Positions 55,069-64,000 of a stretch of 64,000 nucleotides of DNA are shown here, piece by piece. Position 1 is the first letter of the stretch; each line of letters opens with the position of its first letter. Position numbers and translations under genes: made by a program. A model generated the notes under the pieces. The model was not told the origin of the DNA, searched no databases, and saw only the letters and a program-made list of their open reading frames with translations. This DNA is from Tessaracoccus antarcticus (lineage in GTDB: Bacteria; Actinomycetota; Actinomycetes; Propionibacteriales; Propionibacteriaceae), in NCBI RefSeq assembly GCF_003688855.1, contig NZ_REFW01000001.1, positions 496,001 through 560,000 of the forward strand, read 5' to 3'.

Positions 55069-58000
55069 GTGCTGCCCGTGGGGGCGATCCCGCGCACGTC
55101 GACTATCATTGCGCACTTGATAAAAAACATTCCGCCGTGGGTCCTCGAACCCACTGAGGCCGACCTCGTGCGTTTCTTCGGGACACAGACGTATGAGAGG
55201 GGCCGCGATTACGCTGCCCAGGACCGTGTGGGCAGCATCCTGTCCGCGGAAAAACTCATCTCGGCGCAGGTTCGTGGCTCCGGCTACCGCTCCTACCGGG
55301 TGTCGGTGGTGCGGGAGTCGCAGGCCCACACCCTGACTTCTCGTTGTGCCTGCCCTATCGGCCATGCCTGCAAGCACGCCGCCGCCCTCCTGATCCATGT
55401 CCGCACCAGCCAGGGGCGACGCACTGTGCCGCACTGGCGTCGGGCCCTCGACCCCGTTGTGCAGGTGAGTGCGTCCGGGCCGGACGGCATCCGCCTCGCG
55501 CTCCAGGTGGACGACGACGGCCATGGGCCTGGCCTGACGCCTTTGCGATGGGGCAAGGAGCGCTGGATCAGGACCGGTGCCTCCTGGAGTGACCTCAAAC
55601 TCACCCGCGAGGGAATCGACCGCACCCAGTTGGAACTCGTCAACGCACTGAGGGCCGCGCACCGCTCCGATCTGCACTACGGCACCCCCGCCCGGCTGCC
55701 GCTCCGCTCATTGCCACCCGACATGTGGGCTCTCCTGAGGCAGGCGGTTGCGGCCGGGATCGAGTTGCTTCCGGGGGAGGGGCCCCACCGGACCCGGCTT
55801 CCTGTACCGGAGTTGCTCGAGATCCCGGCCGAGCTGACGTTCGCTGTCGACGGCACGCAGGACGGGGTGACTCTCACGCCGGAACTCCGCGTCGACGGTG
55901 AGACCTTCCCGTTCACATGGCAGAACCTGTTGGGGAACCCTGCGCACGGCGTCGCCGTACGCACCCGCGAACGCTTTCTGCTGGCACCACTGACGCACAC
56001 GCTGTCACAGTCCGAGCAGACCCTGTTCAGCAGCGGCGGTATGCAGATCCCCTCCCACGACGTCGGTATCTTCGCCACCGGCTACCTGCCGAGGCTCCGG
56101 GAACAGTTCGAGGTGGTCGTCGCAGAGGACGTGACCCTTCCGGAGGCGCAGCCGCCGCTGCTGCGCTGCACCGTCACGTTCGACGGCTACTCCGCGCTCG
56201 TGCAGTGGGGGTTCCGCTACCTCCTCGACGATCGACCCCATGACCTCGCCCTGCACCCCACCGGTTCCGAGGCGCCGCTGCGCGATCGAGTCGCCGAGCA
56301 GGAACTGGCCGGGAGCATCCGCCCAGGTCCGTGGCGTGGTGTCGACGGGCGGGGTCTGCCTGTCCTCCACGAGGCGAGCCTGACGGGCCTCCCGCTCATC
56401 ACGTTCGTCGATGACGTTCTGCCCGCGCTCGAGGAACGGGACGACGTGGTGGTCGAGACCGGCAGCGAGGCACCCACGTTCACCCATGCCGACGAGGCCC
56501 CGACCATCTCGCTCAGCATCGAGGACTCCGCCAAGGGCGACTGGTTCGACCTCGCCGTCGACGTCACAGTGGCGGGGGAGAAGGTGCCGTTCGCACCACT
56601 GTTCCAGGCGCTTGCCGCCGGGCGTGACCACCTCATCCTCGACTCGGGCACCTGGTTCATGCTGGATGCGCCGGAACTCGAGCAGCTGCGCGCCCTCATC
56701 GAGGAGGCGCGTGTCCTCGTCGACAACGACGGCGACACCTTCCAGTTGAGGCCCGAGCACGCCGGCCTCTGGGAGGAACTGGTGGAGCTGGGCGTTGTCG
56801 CGCAGCAGTCCTCCGCGTGGCAGTCCGCCGTGGGTGCGTTGCTCGACCACACCGAACTCGACCACGTGGAACCCCCCGCCGGCGTGAACGCCACCCTGCG
56901 CCCCTACCAGCGAGAAGGTTTCGCCTGGCTGAGCTTCCTGTGGAAGACCCGACTCGGTGGGGTACTGGCGGACGAGATGGGTCTGGGTAAGACACTCCAG
57001 TCGTTGGCGATGGCGCAGGCCGCCCTGGAGGCGGGCGAACTGGACCGGCCACTGCTCGTCGTCGCACCCACATCCGTGCTGGGGACCTGGGAGGCAGAGG
57101 CCGCCCGGTTCACGCCGGACCTCAAGGTGGTCACCATCACGGGCACCGACAAGCGTCGCGGGGTGCCGTTGGCCGACACCGTCGACGGGGCCCACATCGT
57201 CTTGACCTCCTACACATTGCTGCGGCTGGAGGCCGATGCCTACCTGGATCTGACGTGGTCAGCGGTACTCCTCGACGAGGCGCAATTCGTGAAGAACTCC
57301 TCGTCCAAGGCCTACCAGGCGGTGCGTCGGTTGCGGGCTCGCGTCAAGATCGCGCTGACGGGCACCCCCTTGGAGAACAACCTCATGGACCTGTGGTCGC
57401 TCCTGTCGATCACGGCACCGGGCCTGTTCCCTGACCCGAAACGGTTCGCGGAGCTGTACCGCAAACCCATCGAGGGCGGAGACTCCGACGCTCTCGCCCG
57501 CCTGCACCGTCGGATCCGCCCCCTGATGTTGCGTCGCACCAAGGCCGCTGTTGCCACTGAACTGCCCGACAAGCAGGAGCAGGTGGTGCCCGTGCCGTTG
57601 TCGTCGGCGCACCGCAAGCTCTACGACCGCCACCTCACGCGGGAGCGCCAGAAAGTGCTGGGCCTTGTCGGTGACATGAACCGGAACCGCATCACCATCC
57701 TGCGTTCGCTGACGCTTCTGCGGCAGCTCAGCCTCGCCCCGTCGCTCGTGGACCCCACCTACCCGGCAGTCTCCGCGAAGATCGACGCCCTGCTGGAGCT
57801 CATGGAGGAGGCCACCTCCACGGGGCACCGGGCACTGGTGTTCAGCCAGTTCACCGGTTTCCTCGCGCTGGTCAAGCAGCGTTTGACGGAGGAGGGCGTG
57901 GCCTACGAGTACCTTGACGGCCGCACCCGCAACCGCGCCGAGCGCATCCGATCCTTCCGTGAGGGCGACGCCCCCGTCTTCCTCATCAGCCTCAAGGCCG

Positions 58001-58296
58001 GGGGTTTTGGTCTGACGCTGACGGAAGCCGACTACGTGTTCATCCTCGACCCCTGGTGGAATCCTGCGGCCGAGACCCAGGCCATCGACCGCGCCCACCG
58101 CATCGGCCAGGACAAACCCGTCAATGTGTACCGGCTCGTCAGCGCCGACACCATCGAGGAGAAGGTGGTGGCGCTGCAGGAGCGCAAACGCGACCTCTTC
58201 GACGCCGTCGTCGGTCAGACCTCCAACATCTCGGCCCCCCTGTCGGCTGAGGACATCCGCGGCCTCCTCGAGCCTGACGAACCCGCTGCTGGCTGA
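55069..58296 (+). CDS. SWIM zinc-finger SNF2-family helicase
   Basis: About 1,075 residues. A SWIM zinc finger (CACPIGHACKHAAALLI, CxCxnCxH) lies near residue 95, followed by an about 500-residue middle region. The SNF2 ATPase comes next: LADEMGLGKTLQSLA (Walker A, about 634), LLDEAQFVKN (DEAx, about 735), ALTGTPLENNLMDLWSLL, and the helicase C end AHRIGQDKPVNVYRL (about 1,010). These proteins remodel or translocate on DNA. The start is uncertain: GTG 55069, GTG 55078 or TTG 55117; none has a good ribosome site. Confidence 0.93.
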   Translation: MLPVGAIPRTSTIIAHLIKNIPPWVLEPTEADLVRFFGTQTYERGRDYAAQDRVGSILSAEKLISAQVRGSGYRSYRVSVVRESQAHTLTSRCACPIGHACKHAAALLIHVRTSQGRRTVPHWRRALDPVVQVSASGPDGIRLALQVDDDGHGPGLTPLRWGKERWIRTGASWSDLKLTREGIDRTQLELVNALRAAHRSDLHYGTPARLPLRSLPPDMWALLRQAVAAGIELLPGEGPHRTRLPVPELLEIPAELTFAVDGTQDGVTLTPELRVDGETFPFTWQNLLGNPAHGVAVRTRERFLLAPLTHTLSQSEQTLFSSGGMQIPSHDVGIFATGYLPRLREQFEVVVAEDVTLPEAQPPLLRCTVTFDGYSALVQWGFRYLLDDRPHDLALHPTGSEAPLRDRVAEQELAGSIRPGPWRGVDGRGLPVLHEASLTGLPLITFVDDVLPALEERDDVVVETGSEAPTFTHADEAPTISLSIEDSAKGDWFDLAVDVTVAGEKVPFAPLFQALAAGRDHLILDSGTWFMLDAPELEQLRALIEEARVLVDNDGDTFQLRPEHAGLWEELVELGVVAQQSSAWQSAVGALLDHTELDHVEPPAGVNATLRPYQREGFAWLSFLWKTRLGGVLADEMGLGKTLQSLAMAQAALEAGELDRPLLVVAPTSVLGTWEAEAARFTPDLKVVTITGTDKRRGVPLADTVDGAHIVLTSYTLLRLEADAYLDLTWSAVLLDEAQFVKNSSSKAYQAVRRLRARVKIALTGTPLENNLMDLWSLLSITAPGLFPDPKRFAELYRKPIEGGDSDALARLHRRIRPLMLRRTKAAVATELPDKQEQVVPVPLSSAHRKLYDRHLTRERQKVLGLVGDMNRNRITILRSLTLLRQLSLAPSLVDPTYPAVSAKIDALLELMEEATSTGHRALVFSQFTGFLALVKQRLTEEGVAYEYLDGRTRNRAERIRSFREGDAPVFLISLKAGGFGLTLTEADYVFILDPWWNPAAETQAIDRAHRIGQDKPVNVYRLVSADTIEEKVVALQERKRDLFDAVVGQTSNISAPLSAEDIRGLLEPDEPAAG

Positions 58297-58497: not shown

Positions 58498-59655
58498 ATG
58501 TTCGTGACCGAACTGTCCTTGACGGACTTCCGCAACTACACCACCGCCAGCCTGCAGCTGTCGCCCGGGGTGAACGTGTTCGTGGGCTCCAACGGGCAGG
58601 GCAAGACCAATCTCGTCGAGGCCGTGGAGTACCTCTCAACCATGACCTCGCACCGCGTCGCGTCCACGGCGCCCCTGATCCGCGCAGGCTGCGACTCCGC
58701 GATCCTGCGCGCCAAGGTCCAGGCCGCCCACGACGACCCCCGCATCATCTCCGTGGAGATGGAGGTGGCGCACGGTCGCTCCAACGTCGCCCGCCTCAAC
58801 CGGGCACCCGTGGCCCGCCCCCGCGACATGGTCGGTGCCCTGAGGACCGTCGTCTTCTCGCCCGTCGACCTTGCCATAGTGCGCGGCGACCCCTCCGACC
58901 GGCGCGGCTGGCTGGACTCCCTCGTCGTGACCCGGTGGCCACGCATGGCCGGGAGCCGGCAGGACCTGGACAGGGTACTCAAGCAGCGCAACGCCCTCCT
59001 GAAGTCCATGGCCGGTCGATCGATGCGCCCCTCGGGCGGGGACGCCGACACCACACTGGCGGCCTGGAACGAGCAGCTCGCCACCGTCGGTGCCGAGCTC
59101 CTGCACGCCCGCCTCGACACTCTCGCCGACGTGCTTCCCCACGTCCAACGCGCCTACGAGACCATCGCGCCCGTCAACAACCGGGTGGAAGCGACCTACA
59201 AGACGGGTCTGGACCTCGAGGGTGTCACCGACAGCAACGACGTCCGCGCAACACTTCAGGAACGCATGCTCTCTGCCATGGAGGCGCGCCGGAGCGACGA
59301 GGTGAACCGCGGTGTCACGCTCGTGGGGCCGCAGAGAGACGACATCGACTTGTTCGTCGGTGAACTCCCCGCGAAGGGGTATGCGTCGCACGGGGAGTGC
59401 TGGTCGTTGGCGCTTGCGCTGCGCCTGGGCGGTTTCGAGTTGGTGCGCGACGACGGCACGGAGCCGGTGCTCGTCCTGGACGACGTTTTTGCCGAGCTGG
59501 ACACCTCCCGCCGCGACCGGCTGGCCGGGGCCATCGTCGATGCCGAGCAAGTGCTCATCACCGCCGCCGTCGGCGCCGACGTCCCCGGGTTCCCGTCCGA
59601 GCGTCGCTTTCGTGTGGACGCCGGACGAGTGTGGGAGGAGAGCGTTGATGAGTGA
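58498..59655 (+). CDS. recF: DNA replication/repair protein RecF
   Basis: A 385-residue RecF. The opening is LSLTDFRNYTTASLQLSPGV, Walker A NVFVGSNGQGKTNLVEAVEYL (about 30-45), signature near DFLA/ RDDIDLFV, and Walker B EPVLVLDDVFAELD (about 320). It loads RecA at gaps on single-stranded DNA. ATG start at 58498. Its stop overlaps the DUF721 start by eight bases (ATGAGTGA). Confidence 0.96.
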   Translation: MFVTELSLTDFRNYTTASLQLSPGVNVFVGSNGQGKTNLVEAVEYLSTMTSHRVASTAPLIRAGCDSAILRAKVQAAHDDPRIISVEMEVAHGRSNVARLNRAPVARPRDMVGALRTVVFSPVDLAIVRGDPSDRRGWLDSLVVTRWPRMAGSRQDLDRVLKQRNALLKSMAGRSMRPSGGDADTTLAAWNEQLATVGAELLHARLDTLADVLPHVQRAYETIAPVNNRVEATYKTGLDLEGVTDSNDVRATLQERMLSAMEARRSDEVNRGVTLVGPQRDDIDLFVGELPAKGYASHGECWSLALALRLGGFELVRDDGTEPVLVLDDVFAELDTSRRDRLAGAIVDAEQVLITAAVGADVPGFPSERRFRVDAGRVWEESVDE

Positions 59656-60226
59656 CACCGTGCCACCCACAGACCCGGAGAGCAGCGACGCCGACTCGTT
59701 CGCCACCGAGCCCCACGACCCCACAGGCCTGGACCTCGCCAGCGAAATCGCCCGCCAGACTGCCCGCAACGCACCGTTGCTACCTGCGATGCCGCCACCG
59801 GCTTCCTCGATGAAGCGCCGACGGTTCGGCCAGTTCGAGGAGCAGCGCTCCGGCGCCCGTCCTGACGACCGCGATCCGCAGTCGCTCGGAAGCGTCCTGA
59901 GTCAGGTCAGCAGCAGGCGAGGGTGGGTGAAGCGGATCTCGTTGTCCACGGTCCTGCGGAACTGGCCGGACCTCGTGGGCGCCGACAATGCGGAGCACAG
60001 CCAGCCCGTGAACTTCGTCGACGGCGTCCTCACGGTGCAATGTGACTCCACCGCGTGGGCCACGGGCATGAAGTTCTCCGCTGCTGCACTGGTCGCCCGG
60101 TTGAACAAGGATCTGGGGGAGCAGACGGTCAAGCGCATTGACATCCGCGCCCCGAATCAGCGCAGTTGGAAGAAGGGACTCCGCTCCGTGCGCGACGGCC
60201 GCGGTCCCCGCGACACCTACGGCTGA
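59648..60226 (+). CDS. DUF721 (DciA-like) protein
   Basis: A 192-residue protein. The C-terminal DUF721 domain (VLRNWPDLVGADNAEHSQPV, then VLTVQCDSTAWATGMKFSA) is preceded by an about 85-residue disordered, acidic N-terminus. In many bacteria DUF721 proteins of this type are DciA, which loads the replicative helicase DnaB. The gene overlaps recF by eight bases, as is normal in actinobacteria. gyrB, the common next gene, does not follow. Confidence 0.93.
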   Translation: MSDTVPPTDPESSDADSFATEPHDPTGLDLASEIARQTARNAPLLPAMPPPASSMKRRRFGQFEEQRSGARPDDRDPQSLGSVLSQVSSRRGWVKRISLSTVLRNWPDLVGADNAEHSQPVNFVDGVLTVQCDSTAWATGMKFSAAALVARLNKDLGEQTVKRIDIRAPNQRSWKKGLRSVRDGRGPRDTYG

Positions 60227-60254
60227 GCAGCGACGGGCGGTTGAATACTGGCCC

Positions 60255-60289
60255 TTGCCATGACCAAATACATGGATCTAATATTGGTC
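60255..60289 (+). promoter_or_regulatory. Promoter with inverted repeat upstream of the DUF6603 gene
   Basis: TTGCCA (60255-60260), 18 bases, then TAATAT (60279-60284). GACCAA (60262-60267) and TTGGTC (60284-60289) form an inverted repeat that spans the -10 region, so a repressor could act here. The stretch is AT-rich relative to its surroundings. Inferred. Confidence 0.5.
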
Positions 60290-60381
60290 CGTTGTACGGT
60301 TCACGATGGTCACGAGCTGGGCCTCCCCAGCGCACAGGAGTCGGAGTACGCGACGACGCAGCACGCTACCGGGGGGGAAGC

Positions 60382-62586
60382 ATGCGGGCCACTGAATATG
60401 CCGGAATCGTGGCGGGGCTGCTGTCCGCCGTCGATCCCCGAGTGGCCGGGCTGGTTCAGGCCGCACAGACCCTCGACAACGCCGTCGACACCAACGCAGC
60501 CAGCATCGACCAGGCGATCCGCGACTACCAGCAACGGCTGGAGGCCATCAAGGACGACCTCATCGACCGCGCCCTGGACATGGTGCCCATCGAAGAACTC
60601 ACGAACCAGGCCAAGCAGACCGGCCTGATGGATGCGTACCAACTGCATGCCGAGGCAACGCTCGGCCCACTGTTTCTGAGTGTGACGTCCCCGGCCGCGC
60701 GGCTGGCGGATCCGCGTGGTGGTGCGCTGATCGCGATCGGCCCCATGCCGCCGGACACGTTCCAGGCCAAGCTGGAAGCCGGCCCCGTGAAGGGCAACGG
60801 GGCGCTGCGGGTGACCGACACCGGCGTCGCCGGTGTCATCAGCGCCAGCATCGGTGTCATTGAGGTGGCTGCCCTGGCCAGTCTTGCTCGCACCCCTGAG
60901 GGGGGGCCGTCCTTCCTGGCCGTCTTCGCCGCCGGTTTCACACCGGGGCTCCAGTTCGGTTTCGGGTTCCAGATCAGCCGGATCGGCGGGCTTGTGGGGG
61001 TGGAACGAGCCATCGACCGGGATGCGATGGCAGCGAAACTCCGCGAGGGCACGCTGGCGGCGGTGCTCTTCCCGCTGGACATCGGTCCCTCGGCCACCGC
61101 CGCACTGATCGCTGTCGACCAGTTGTTCCCGCCGCGGGACGGCAGCGCGGTGATGGGGCCCACGTTCCGTCTCTCGTGGCTGGAGGTTGCCGGTGCGGGG
61201 TTTGCATCGGTCGACCTGGCTGTCCTGATCCAGCTACCGGGACCGGTGATCGCGCTCGTCGGCTCGGTGCGTGCTGGCATTCCGGCGGTGGTGCAGATCC
61301 GTGCCGACATCCTGGGCGTGCTCGACTTCCCCGCCCGGACTGCGACGGTGGACGCGTCGCTCGTTGACAGCGGTGTGCTGGGGATCCTGACCATCTACGG
61401 CGACCTGGCCTTCGCCATCAGTTGGGGCGCAAGCCCCTACACCGTGCTCTCCCTCGGCGGCTTCTATCCCGGTTTCTCGCCCGAGCCCGCGAAGATCAGA
61501 CCTCTGAACCGTCTGGGCATGGCACTGGACGTACCCATTCCGGGCCTGACGTTCAGAGCGGAGGGCTACCTCGCCGCCACATCCAACACCCTGCAGTTCG
61601 GTGGTCGGCTGGAGGTGGGCATCGATGCGGGTATTGCCTCGGCGTCTGGCTACCTCGGGCTCGACGCCATCATCCAGTTCACGCCGTTCCACATCAACGC
61701 TGACGTGGTGGGCGGACTGGAAGTGAAATTCCTCGGCCATACCTTCGCAGGGGTCCGTTTCGAGGGACAACTCGATGGGCCCGGACCCGTGACGATTCAC
61801 GGCAGGATCACCGTCGAAACATTCCTGAAGGACTTCGACTGGGAACACACGTTCGTGTTCGGCGAGCCGGAGAGCCCACCCGCGATCCCGCCGCGCCGCG
61901 CCGTGGATGTCCTGGTGGCGGAGGAGTTCGGCCCCACCAACCTCCGGGCCATCGGAGGGATAGATCGCTCAGTGGTGCTGTCCACGCCCGACCGGCAGGG
62001 GGACTTCGCAGTGATCGCTCCCTTGTCCGGTGTGCTCTGGACGCAGCATCGCGTTCCCCTGGGCCTGCCGGTGGATCGGGTGGACGGTACGCCGCTCGGC
62101 ACCCGGCAGACGGTGACGGCCACCGCGCCCGGCAAGAGCGGTGTGGAACGCGACCGCTTTGCCCCCGGTTCCTTCATCACCCTGACGAAGGCGCAGGCAC
62201 TGGCCAGCCCGACGTACGACCTCCTGGATGCCGGCATACGGGTCAGCGCGGGATCCACGCTCTCCGGGCCGGATGATGACGCCTCCTCGGCACCCGAGAT
62301 CCTGCGGAAGGTGCGCGGCGAATTCAGGTTCAGCTCACTGGGACTGTTGCTGATCGCCTCTGCGTTCCCTGAAGGCGTTCTGGGGATGGTGGCCCAGCGC
62401 GATCGACCCGCCGTCATGGTGGATGTCGACGTACGGGTGACGGTCACGCCGCCCCCCTGGGTCACCACCGCCGACGGGGCCCACCACAGCTCCGCGACTG
62501 CCGCGATCTGCCGCTCCCTCATCGTGGGTGGCGCGGCCCTGACCGCCGCGGATGCCGCCCACCCCGTTGCTCTGGGAGGGCTGTAG
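60382..62586 (+). CDS. DUF6603-like large protein, unknown function
   Basis: A 734-residue protein without signal peptide. The N-terminus (about 1-90) is a helical region. A long beta-rich core (about 165-500) follows: FTPGLQFGFGFQISRIGGLVGVERAI, LFPPRDGSAVMGPTFRLSWLEVAG, then WGASPYTVLSLGGFYPGF and LAATSNTLQFGGRLEVGID. This pattern matches what I recall of DUF6603, a poorly characterised beta-barrel-like family found in gene clusters of myxobacteria, cyanobacteria and actinobacteria. It lies where gyrB often sits. ATG 60382 follows GGGGGAAG. The next gene starts two bases after its stop. Confidence 0.6.
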   Translation: MRATEYAGIVAGLLSAVDPRVAGLVQAAQTLDNAVDTNAASIDQAIRDYQQRLEAIKDDLIDRALDMVPIEELTNQAKQTGLMDAYQLHAEATLGPLFLSVTSPAARLADPRGGALIAIGPMPPDTFQAKLEAGPVKGNGALRVTDTGVAGVISASIGVIEVAALASLARTPEGGPSFLAVFAAGFTPGLQFGFGFQISRIGGLVGVERAIDRDAMAAKLREGTLAAVLFPLDIGPSATAALIAVDQLFPPRDGSAVMGPTFRLSWLEVAGAGFASVDLAVLIQLPGPVIALVGSVRAGIPAVVQIRADILGVLDFPARTATVDASLVDSGVLGILTIYGDLAFAISWGASPYTVLSLGGFYPGFSPEPAKIRPLNRLGMALDVPIPGLTFRAEGYLAATSNTLQFGGRLEVGIDAGIASASGYLGLDAIIQFTPFHINADVVGGLEVKFLGHTFAGVRFEGQLDGPGPVTIHGRITVETFLKDFDWEHTFVFGEPESPPAIPPRRAVDVLVAEEFGPTNLRAIGGIDRSVVLSTPDRQGDFAVIAPLSGVLWTQHRVPLGLPVDRVDGTPLGTRQTVTATAPGKSGVERDRFAPGSFITLTKAQALASPTYDLLDAGIRVSAGSTLSGPDDDASSAPEILRKVRGEFRFSSLGLLLIASAFPEGVLGMVAQRDRPAVMVDVDVRVTVTPPPWVTTADGAHHSSATAAICRSLIVGGAALTAADAAHPVALGGL

Positions 62587-62588
62587 CC

Positions 62589-64000
62589 ATGACCGAAACG
62601 TTCTTTGCCTGGCAGCGGTCGGGGGTGAGCGCCCTGGCAGGTCCGACGTACGCCGAGGGTCGCATGCAGGGCGAGCTCGTCGTCACACTGGACGACGGCG
62701 CCGCCCGTGACGGGTCGGCCCCGTTCCTCTTCGCAGGACCCCAGGATGTCTTATCCCTGCAGGCCGGCGTCATCGTGGGTCGAAAGCCGGCGCCCGGAAC
62801 GCTCGACGCAGAGATCACGCGCGTCGCCCACATCGAACTCAGCGACCCCGGTCTGCCGTGGCGCTACACACCCCTGCGCAACCAGCCACTCCTGCGACCC
62901 TGGCTGGTCCTGGTGGTGGGAACGACGGGCCAGGAGGTGATCGTCGACGGCGCCACCGTACGGATCCTCAACACCGCGTTGGTGGCGCACCCCCTCACGA
63001 ACTCAGCCGGCTGGGCGCACGTCCACGCCATCCCCGGCGCCACGATCGCCCGGATCCTCAGCCCGCGTCAACTGGCGGCGAACGCCTCCTACACCGCCGT
63101 GCTCGTGCCCGCCATCGTCCCCGGCACAGGCGCCAACCCGCCGCAGGTGGCCTGGAGGGATGGCACGCCGGAGGTCACACTTCCCTGTCACGACCACTGG
63201 AGCTTCCGTACCCGCGACGACACGGACGACTTCCGCTCCATTGCGCAACGGCTGGAACCCTTGACGACGGCAGAGGAGGAGGCGCTCCAGAGCGCCGGGT
63301 TCGGCAGGGCCGTCGTCACCGTTCGGGGTCGTGACGACCCGGTGCTGCAACTCGGTGGAGCGCTGAGTGCGGTGGACAAACCGCCCTCCGAGCCGCTGTC
63401 CGACCACGTCGGCATCGCGGAGGAGGTGGAGAAACTGGCGGAACTCTCGGAGGTGCACGGGGGGCGGTGGGTGCTGGGGCTGCCGCGCTTCGACGAGCCG
63501 TGGGCGGCACCTGGGACCCCGGTGCCGGTCAGCGGATGGCGTCGACAGCTGCGGGTGGATCCCCGCCACCGCGGCACGGCCGGGCTGGGGGCCTGGGCGG
63601 CCATCGCCTGGCAGGAGAAGATCGCCGCCGGGGCCGCGCAGCAGTCCGGCGAACTCGCCGTCCTGGCCGAACGCGTCCGCAACCTTTCACTGGGGCTGCA
63701 CGCTGCACGGAGGCTGTGGACCCGCAGACTGCCGGCGGATCCGAGGGCGGCGTTTGCCGTCGTGGCGCCGATGCTGTCACGGCTCCCCGTGGACGGGGGC
63801 GCCGTCGCGCTCGACCGGCTGGCCGGGCGAACCTCCCGTCTCGTTCCGGCACTGTTCTCCTCCGGTGCGCGCCGCATGCTTCGCCCCCGGAACGCTCTGG
63901 CGCGAGTCGCCGGGCCAGGTGCCACGTCACTGCCTGCGCTCATCGACGCCGCCGCCACCAAGTGCGTTCCGCCTCCCGAGCCGCTGCCCGGCCAGTATGA
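62589..64000 (+). CDS. Uncharacterised protein linked to the DUF6603 gene (5' part, runs off window)
   Basis: 470 uninterrupted codons from ATG 62589 to the window edge. It has no signal peptide and is rich in beta and coil sequence. Recognisable segments are LPWRYTPLRNQPLLRPWLVL (about 89-108) and FRTRDDTDDFRSIAQRLEPL (about 206-225). I have a memory of similar segments in large uncharacterised proteins next to DUF6603 genes, but no name. Only two bases separate it from the upstream stop, so the two are co-translated. The C-terminal half visible here (about 340-470) is helical and Ala/Arg-rich. Confidence 0.7.
   Translation, partial: MTETFFAWQRSGVSALAGPTYAEGRMQGELVVTLDDGAARDGSAPFLFAGPQDVLSLQAGVIVGRKPAPGTLDAEITRVAHIELSDPGLPWRYTPLRNQPLLRPWLVLVVGTTGQEVIVDGATVRILNTALVAHPLTNSAGWAHVHAIPGATIARILSPRQLAANASYTAVLVPAIVPGTGANPPQVAWRDGTPEVTLPCHDHWSFRTRDDTDDFRSIAQRLEPLTTAEEEALQSAGFGRAVVTVRGRDDPVLQLGGALSAVDKPPSEPLSDHVGIAEEVEKLAELSEVHGGRWVLGLPRFDEPWAAPGTPVPVSGWRRQLRVDPRHRGTAGLGAWAAIAWQEKIAAGAAQQSGELAVLAERVRNLSLGLHAARRLWTRRLPADPRAAFAVVAPMLSRLPVDGGAVALDRLAGRTSRLVPALFSSGARRMLRPRNALARVAGPGATSLPALIDAAATKCVPPPEPLPGQY

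Follow-up and report, generated by a model that had tools for sequence, protein, structure and literature searches.

What are the two large genes that follow the DUF721 gene dciA at the end of this stretch of Tessaracoccus antarcticus DNA (64,000 nucleotides, G000:C1:496001-560000; the window)? The original prediction, made from the letters alone, described a pair of large unknowns two bases apart in the usual gyrB place, proposed a DUF6603-type match and guessed at either a secreted or particle-forming assembly or a conflict system. We find that the pair opens a linked set of four genes (g1–g4) that is probably inherited and transferred as one unit and, in many relatives, is abutted by enzymes of several classes, some of which end in a common C-terminal tail. 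Tentatively, and with a little less than even confidence, we read this four-gene core and its exchangeable exo-type enzymes as a platform that recruits tagged enzymes, used perhaps outside the cell.

The pair is as it was described: g1 follows dciA, stops two bases short of g2 (stop at 62586, start at 62589) and leaves g2 to run out of the window, where it is completed to 827 amino acids (aa; Table 1). The proposed family assignment is borne out by PF20248 (DUF6603), which matches g1 at 270.9 bits (cut-off 27) over profile positions 22–500 of 502. What follows is not gyrB–gyrA at once but two further co-directional genes, g3 (1409 aa) and g4 (518 aa), giving the order g1-g2-g3-g4. Because g2/g3 and g3/g4 overlap in the ATGA/TGATG manner, start codon on stop codon, g1–g4 are probably a coupled-translation operon. 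No Pfam, NCBIfam, PHROG or PADLOC model matches g2, g3 or g4; for g1–g4 together, PADLOC returns no family up to E 1, PHROGs none (best E 0.13) and Pfam no tail family, and no NTPase family is matched. Sequence comparison with solved structures gave nothing convincing (g1 and g3 as single sequences; g1, g2 and g4 as profiles). An AF2 model of g1 (mean pLDDT 78.5, pTM 0.56) predicts N-terminal helices followed by a long antiparallel β-meander. Ten g4 proteins, when aligned, share 38 invariant columns. At two loci (L104 and L111), g3 and g4 are fused in a single frame (2028 and 2053 aa), which supports a physical association of the two. In the literature listings searched, DUF6603, PF20248 and the g4 motif words have no description, and g2–g4 and the tagged enzymes appear undescribed as DUF6603 partners.

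Linkage of the four genes extends well beyond the genus. DUF6603 is present in 13 of 96 genomes of relatives, the window's own included and four of them in its genus; around the relatives' other DUF6603 matches, 10 of 13 loci keep the order g1-g2-g3-g4. A second architecture is found at L026, L027 and L032, where DUF6603 lies in large frames (2300–3500 aa), with neither g3 nor g4 in the stretch fetched and a weak g2-like match at two. Scanning genome_contigs with one peptide pattern taken from the g4 alignment produced 387 related stretches; the best 80 of the 387 span nine phyla (Actinomycetota, Pseudomonadota, Acidobacteriota, Planctomycetota, Chloroflexota, Cyanobacteriota, Nitrospirota, Bacteroidota and Verrucomicrobiota). 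All four genes occur together in eight of the nine; for Verrucomicrobiota, represented by a short contig, g3 and g4 are seen. Profiles derived from stop-to-stop frames, which may run into adjacent genes at their ends, place g4 in 90, g3 in 89, g2 in 84 and g1 in 59 of 93 loci (L020–L112), many of which are cut upstream. Genomes taken from g4 loci contain DUF6603 in 17 of 17 and 37 of 37 cases, and it adjoins g2 on the same strand in 52 of 54 (contigs matched by coordinates, with agreeing lengths wherever regions were fetched; at L098, which has several DUF6603 domains, the nearest was taken). L095 has a different gene order, L103 has no g2 on its contig, and at L092 no DUF6603 adjoins. Source annotations of the core genes, among those listed, read 'hypothetical protein' or give domain names.

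Six plasmid records also matched, one of them haloarchaeal and carrying all four genes; viral_contigs yielded no confirmed g4 relative. An unverified 'Bacteriophage sp.' record from human faeces (MT835531.1, L117) holds part of g1 together with g2, g3 and g4; since the rest of its frames look chromosomal, the contig may be bacterial and mislabelled. In a g4 tree of 49 rows (P-numbered proteins dropped), the four genus copies stand apart, three of them within starred groups with other taxa: the window's own copy groups with a Nocardioidaceae bin, G030 with Ruaniaceae and G026 with G075, the placement of G012 being less sure (92/89). These scattered copies would either have been acquired independently or be old ones left after many losses; by the tree program's own warning, such a pattern is no proof of transfer.

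Beside the constant core, the neighbours change. In 26 of 39 upstream regions, some of these 39 being cut by contig ends, g1 is abutted by a same-strand open reading frame (ORF) 250 aa or longer; an ORF counts as abutting if its end falls no more than 250 nt before or 900 nt after the point where the stop-to-stop frame of g1 begins. Twenty of the 26 were scanned, and 13 match an enzyme family over the Pfam cut-off (M64, four; S8, three; M14, two; phospholipase D (PLD), two; PhoD, one; galactose-oxidase-like, one), counts that stand without a null frequency for such enzymes beside unrelated operons. Under the cut-off are two PhoD, one trypsin-like and one Nal1_C match; one further ORF is a WD40 protein and two have no match. 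A nine-locus cluster (Cupriavidus, Variovorax, Nocardia and an acidobacterium) and a Nocardia plasmid carry an S8 gene 3′ of g4 instead, over the cut-off in four of four scanned. PhoD-like proteins recur by homology (L144, L145, L152, L154 and L160), a Mariniphaga locus places a PhoD-like gene between g2 and g1, and in some relatives two enzymes accompany the core in the same direction. Against the type VII secretion mycosin model TIGR03921 (cut-off 278.75), the S8 neighbours reach only 97.2 (L025) and 75.7 bits (L164). Genes farther out vary, with few families common between loci.

Enzymes of unlike classes share their ends. An all-versus-all comparison of the abutting proteins revealed a C-terminal domain of ~115 residues, CTD1, common to subtilisin-like S8 neighbours (L025, L133 and L164) and trypsin-like ones with a GDSG motif (L162, L148, L024 and L135); its alignment (A5) has an invariant W-H-R and invariant G, R, E, L and P positions. 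Searches for CTD1 scored part of the first-look candidates in many genomes (at most 43 or 83 per genome). On that footing, relatives gave five matches in 3 of 96 genomes, all three with DUF6603, and none among the 83 relatives lacking it; a further eight matches fall in 6 of 50 cassette genomes. All 13 lie upstream of a DUF6603 domain on the same strand; the distance is 1.28–1.41 kb for a first copy and 2.67–2.95 kb where a second stands in tandem. The CTD1 alignment already included seven of them. Six were not part of it (G026 with two, and G075, G097, G098 and G105 with one each), and these too are all adjacent.

A second tail belongs to an existing model, CFI-box-CTERM (NF041770, cut-off 40), a C-terminal domain whose function is not stated and which was not found, as 'CFI-box', in the literature listings searched. 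Here it is carried by M14 neighbours: that of L137 scores 55.6 bits, that of L130 falls just below at 39.8, and that of L161 is a carrier by homology; the M64 protein of L131 has a weak match under the cut-off (21.5 bits). None of the 96 relatives gives a CFI-box-CTERM match. The 50 cassette genomes give five matches, four of them 1.31–1.46 kb upstream of DUF6603 and three of these over the cut-off (G096, G124 and G117); three of the four adjacent matches are the proteins in which the tail was first noticed, G096 being the new one. Counting either tail, 10 of the 50 cassette genomes carry one at this site.

Core proteins and neighbours also carry extra modules. One actinomycete subtype (L110; a cluster of 19 loci) has a Pfam kelch protein between DUF6603 and g2, and in six of six joined contigs the DUF6603 frame contains kelch-like motifs and another frame with such motifs stands between it and g2 (kelch-like motifs, like those of S8, PhoD and trypsin, were checked with short sequence patterns). 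IPT/TIG modules occur on core proteins or neighbours, as do lamin-tail and BGTF names on the archaeal plasmid; on a Streptomyces plasmid there is a peptidoglycan-binding neighbour besides a VCBS name. These modules (kelch, IPT/TIG, lamin tail, BGTF surface, VCBS, peptidoglycan binding) are for the most part of extracellular type.

From this we infer that the four large proteins most likely assemble together, that CTD1 or CFI-box-CTERM would act as a recruitment tag binding an enzyme to them, and that the core most likely displays or delivers the enzyme outside the producing cell. With its long β-meander, which looks amphipathic by eye, g1 would be the likeliest part to form a pore or shell or to contact lipid. 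At the window's own locus, the payload may be unlinked, unrecognised or lost. Put in full, and held more loosely than the recruitment reading itself, the proposal is of an enzyme-delivery or display platform that has not been described before and that spreads horizontally. Its four large core proteins, with no known family beyond DUF6603, would be loaded with interchangeable proteases, lipases, phosphatases or oxidases, some through CTD1 or CFI-box-CTERM tags; all four genes are present in eight or more bacterial phyla and on one haloarchaeal plasmid.

Several observations weigh against such a platform. The window's cassette abuts no enzyme gene, and its genome contains neither CTD1 nor CFI-box-CTERM matches. 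CTD1 has no match in 44 of the 50 cassette genomes, and distant copies may have been missed because the searches scored part of the candidates. One of the adjacent CFI-box-CTERM matches (G118) is below the cut-off, and one over it lies away from DUF6603 (G136:C93:331203-331409). The PhoD-like proteins, the PLD proteins, an 860-aa M64 group and the downstream S8 proteins showed no tail in common with other classes when compared, and some S8 neighbours lack the catalytic motifs looked for. Signal peptides, judged from the N termini only, are not obvious in the payloads read; neither an export route nor an NTPase or secretion component came to light, though no search was aimed at any of them. The fold of g1 resembles outer-membrane barrels and the ApoB lipid belt only loosely, that of g4 matches nothing, and a crude hydrophobicity measure does not separate g1 from a secreted control (2.21 versus 2.32).

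The tagged, exchangeable enzymes of the relatives fit both earlier guesses, the secreted or particle-forming assembly and the conflict system. Under the latter, the core would sense an invader and release or activate an exchangeable protease, lipase or phosphatase inside the cell. Exchangeable effectors, a patchy distribution, the scattered g4 tree and the plasmid copies are all as expected of defence, as are payloads without an obvious signal peptide, and NCBIfam gives a weak match between one S8 neighbour and the anti-phage peptidase IteS (14.5 bits, far below the cut-off of 900). Yet g1–g4 match neither a PADLOC system nor an NTPase family, g4 relatives went unconfirmed in viral_contigs, and the modules on the core and its neighbours are mostly of extracellular type. 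Since both the enzymes and the added modules are of this type, we consider display or delivery likelier, and an intracellular defence role unlikely.

Less probable again is a cell-envelope or surface assembly (coat, adhesin or matrix) for which the enzyme is a maturation factor or a surface enzyme. The surface-type modules would suit it, and so would a β-rich g1 with its distant resemblance to barrels and lipid belt; a maturation protease, however, would be expected to belong to one conserved class, whereas here several peptidase classes alternate with lipases, phosphatases and an oxidase, and DUF6603 is missing from most close relatives. That the four hypothetical genes are together by chance beside random neighbours is highly improbable: their function is not known, the outer genes vary and few families are common to the loci, but linkage in 52 of 54 genomes, the start/stop overlaps and a tail at the site for 13 of 13 CTD1 matches already contradict it.

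An enzyme-recruiting platform of this kind would work like two known systems without belonging to either. Extracellular contractile injection systems with cargo likewise combine conserved large structural genes with exchangeable enzyme cargo, a likeness in working only; g1–g4 have no sheath, tube, baseplate or AAA+ match in Pfam or PHROGs, and so cannot be placed with these or other phage tail-like particles. Downstream, where the original prediction proposed looking for tail-like proteins or AAA+ ATPases, one collar-domain gene lies 1.6 kb past g4 on the other strand (PF07484 phage tail collar, 96 bits; L002:18463-19074, minus strand), with no counterpart among the 13 relatives' loci searched. 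The sorting domains of Type IX secretion, in which one C-terminal domain is placed on unrelated enzymes, are again similar in working only; unlike them, the CTD1 proteins detected adjoin their cassette instead of being scattered through the genome, and are found here in actinomycetes. If the proposal holds, soil and environmental bacteria contain a whole class of enzyme-recruiting machines that the labels 'DUF6603' and 'hypothetical protein' have concealed, and CFI-box-CTERM gains a first candidate partner. The tag domains would then yield directly testable predictions: the identity of the loaded enzymes, their binding place and a tolerance of different enzyme classes.

How the cassette came to lie beside dciA is a separate matter. 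The pair does follow dciA, and gyrB is on the same contig (C1:585160), ~29 kb on from the dciA domain. In 28 of the 39 genomes of the genus, dciA and gyrB share a contig. Measured between the domains, and without requiring the same strand, they are 1.7–29 kb apart in 25 of these (the window's distance is the longest of the 25) and 78–171 kb apart in three. Because the distances vary so across the genus, the dciA–gyrB interval can be said to take inserts often, large ones included. The other three genus copies of DUF6603 (G012, G026 and G030) sit on contigs different from those of dciA and gyrB, and the gyrB position of this cassette is therefore incidental.

Of the recently inserted multigene system first envisaged, the multigene part stands, with four conserved core genes at a variable site, missing from most of the genus; 'recently' finds no support in composition, which gives the cassette no foreign mark (GC 0.68–0.71 versus 0.67 for the window, codon usage within the neighbours' range). 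The private promoter with an inverted repeat fares similarly: there is one weak sigma-70-like match, and the inverted repeats of the intergenic stretch (60227–60381) are only 71% complementary, its RNA folding no better than shuffles (z −0.96).

Table 1. Features of the window and its continuation (window positions unless a locus prefix is given).
Feature	Position	Strand	Remarks
dciA (DUF721/DciA)	59648..60226	+	PF05258 over cut-off at G000:C1:555882-556145; upstream neighbour, outside the system
Sigma-70-like promoter match, weak, single	60255..60284	+	9 of 12 positions agree; 1 found versus 0.1 expected
g1, DUF6603 protein, 734 aa	60382..62586	+	PF20248, 270.9 bits; starts with ATG
g2, 827 aa, family unknown	62589..64000	+	First 470 codons inside the window; ends at contig C1:561072 (L002:11072)
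g3, 1409 aa	L002:11069-15298, past window end		Reading frame
g4, 518 aa	L002:15298-16854, past window end		Reading frame

Between g4 and gyrB, beyond the window, lie a sodium:alanine symporter, the collar-domain protein on the other strand, a PKD/Big-domain protein, a GmrSD_C/Excalibur protein, a phosphoketolase and a LacI regulator. Directly 5′ of gyrB is a 2252-aa protein with a GH2 β-galactosidase region (L003:7317-14075). Upstream, within the window, a 1075-aa frame of SNF2-type helicase, as judged by its motifs, occupies 55069–58296 between dnaN and recF; the dnaN–recF–dciA–gyrB run is therefore interrupted there too.

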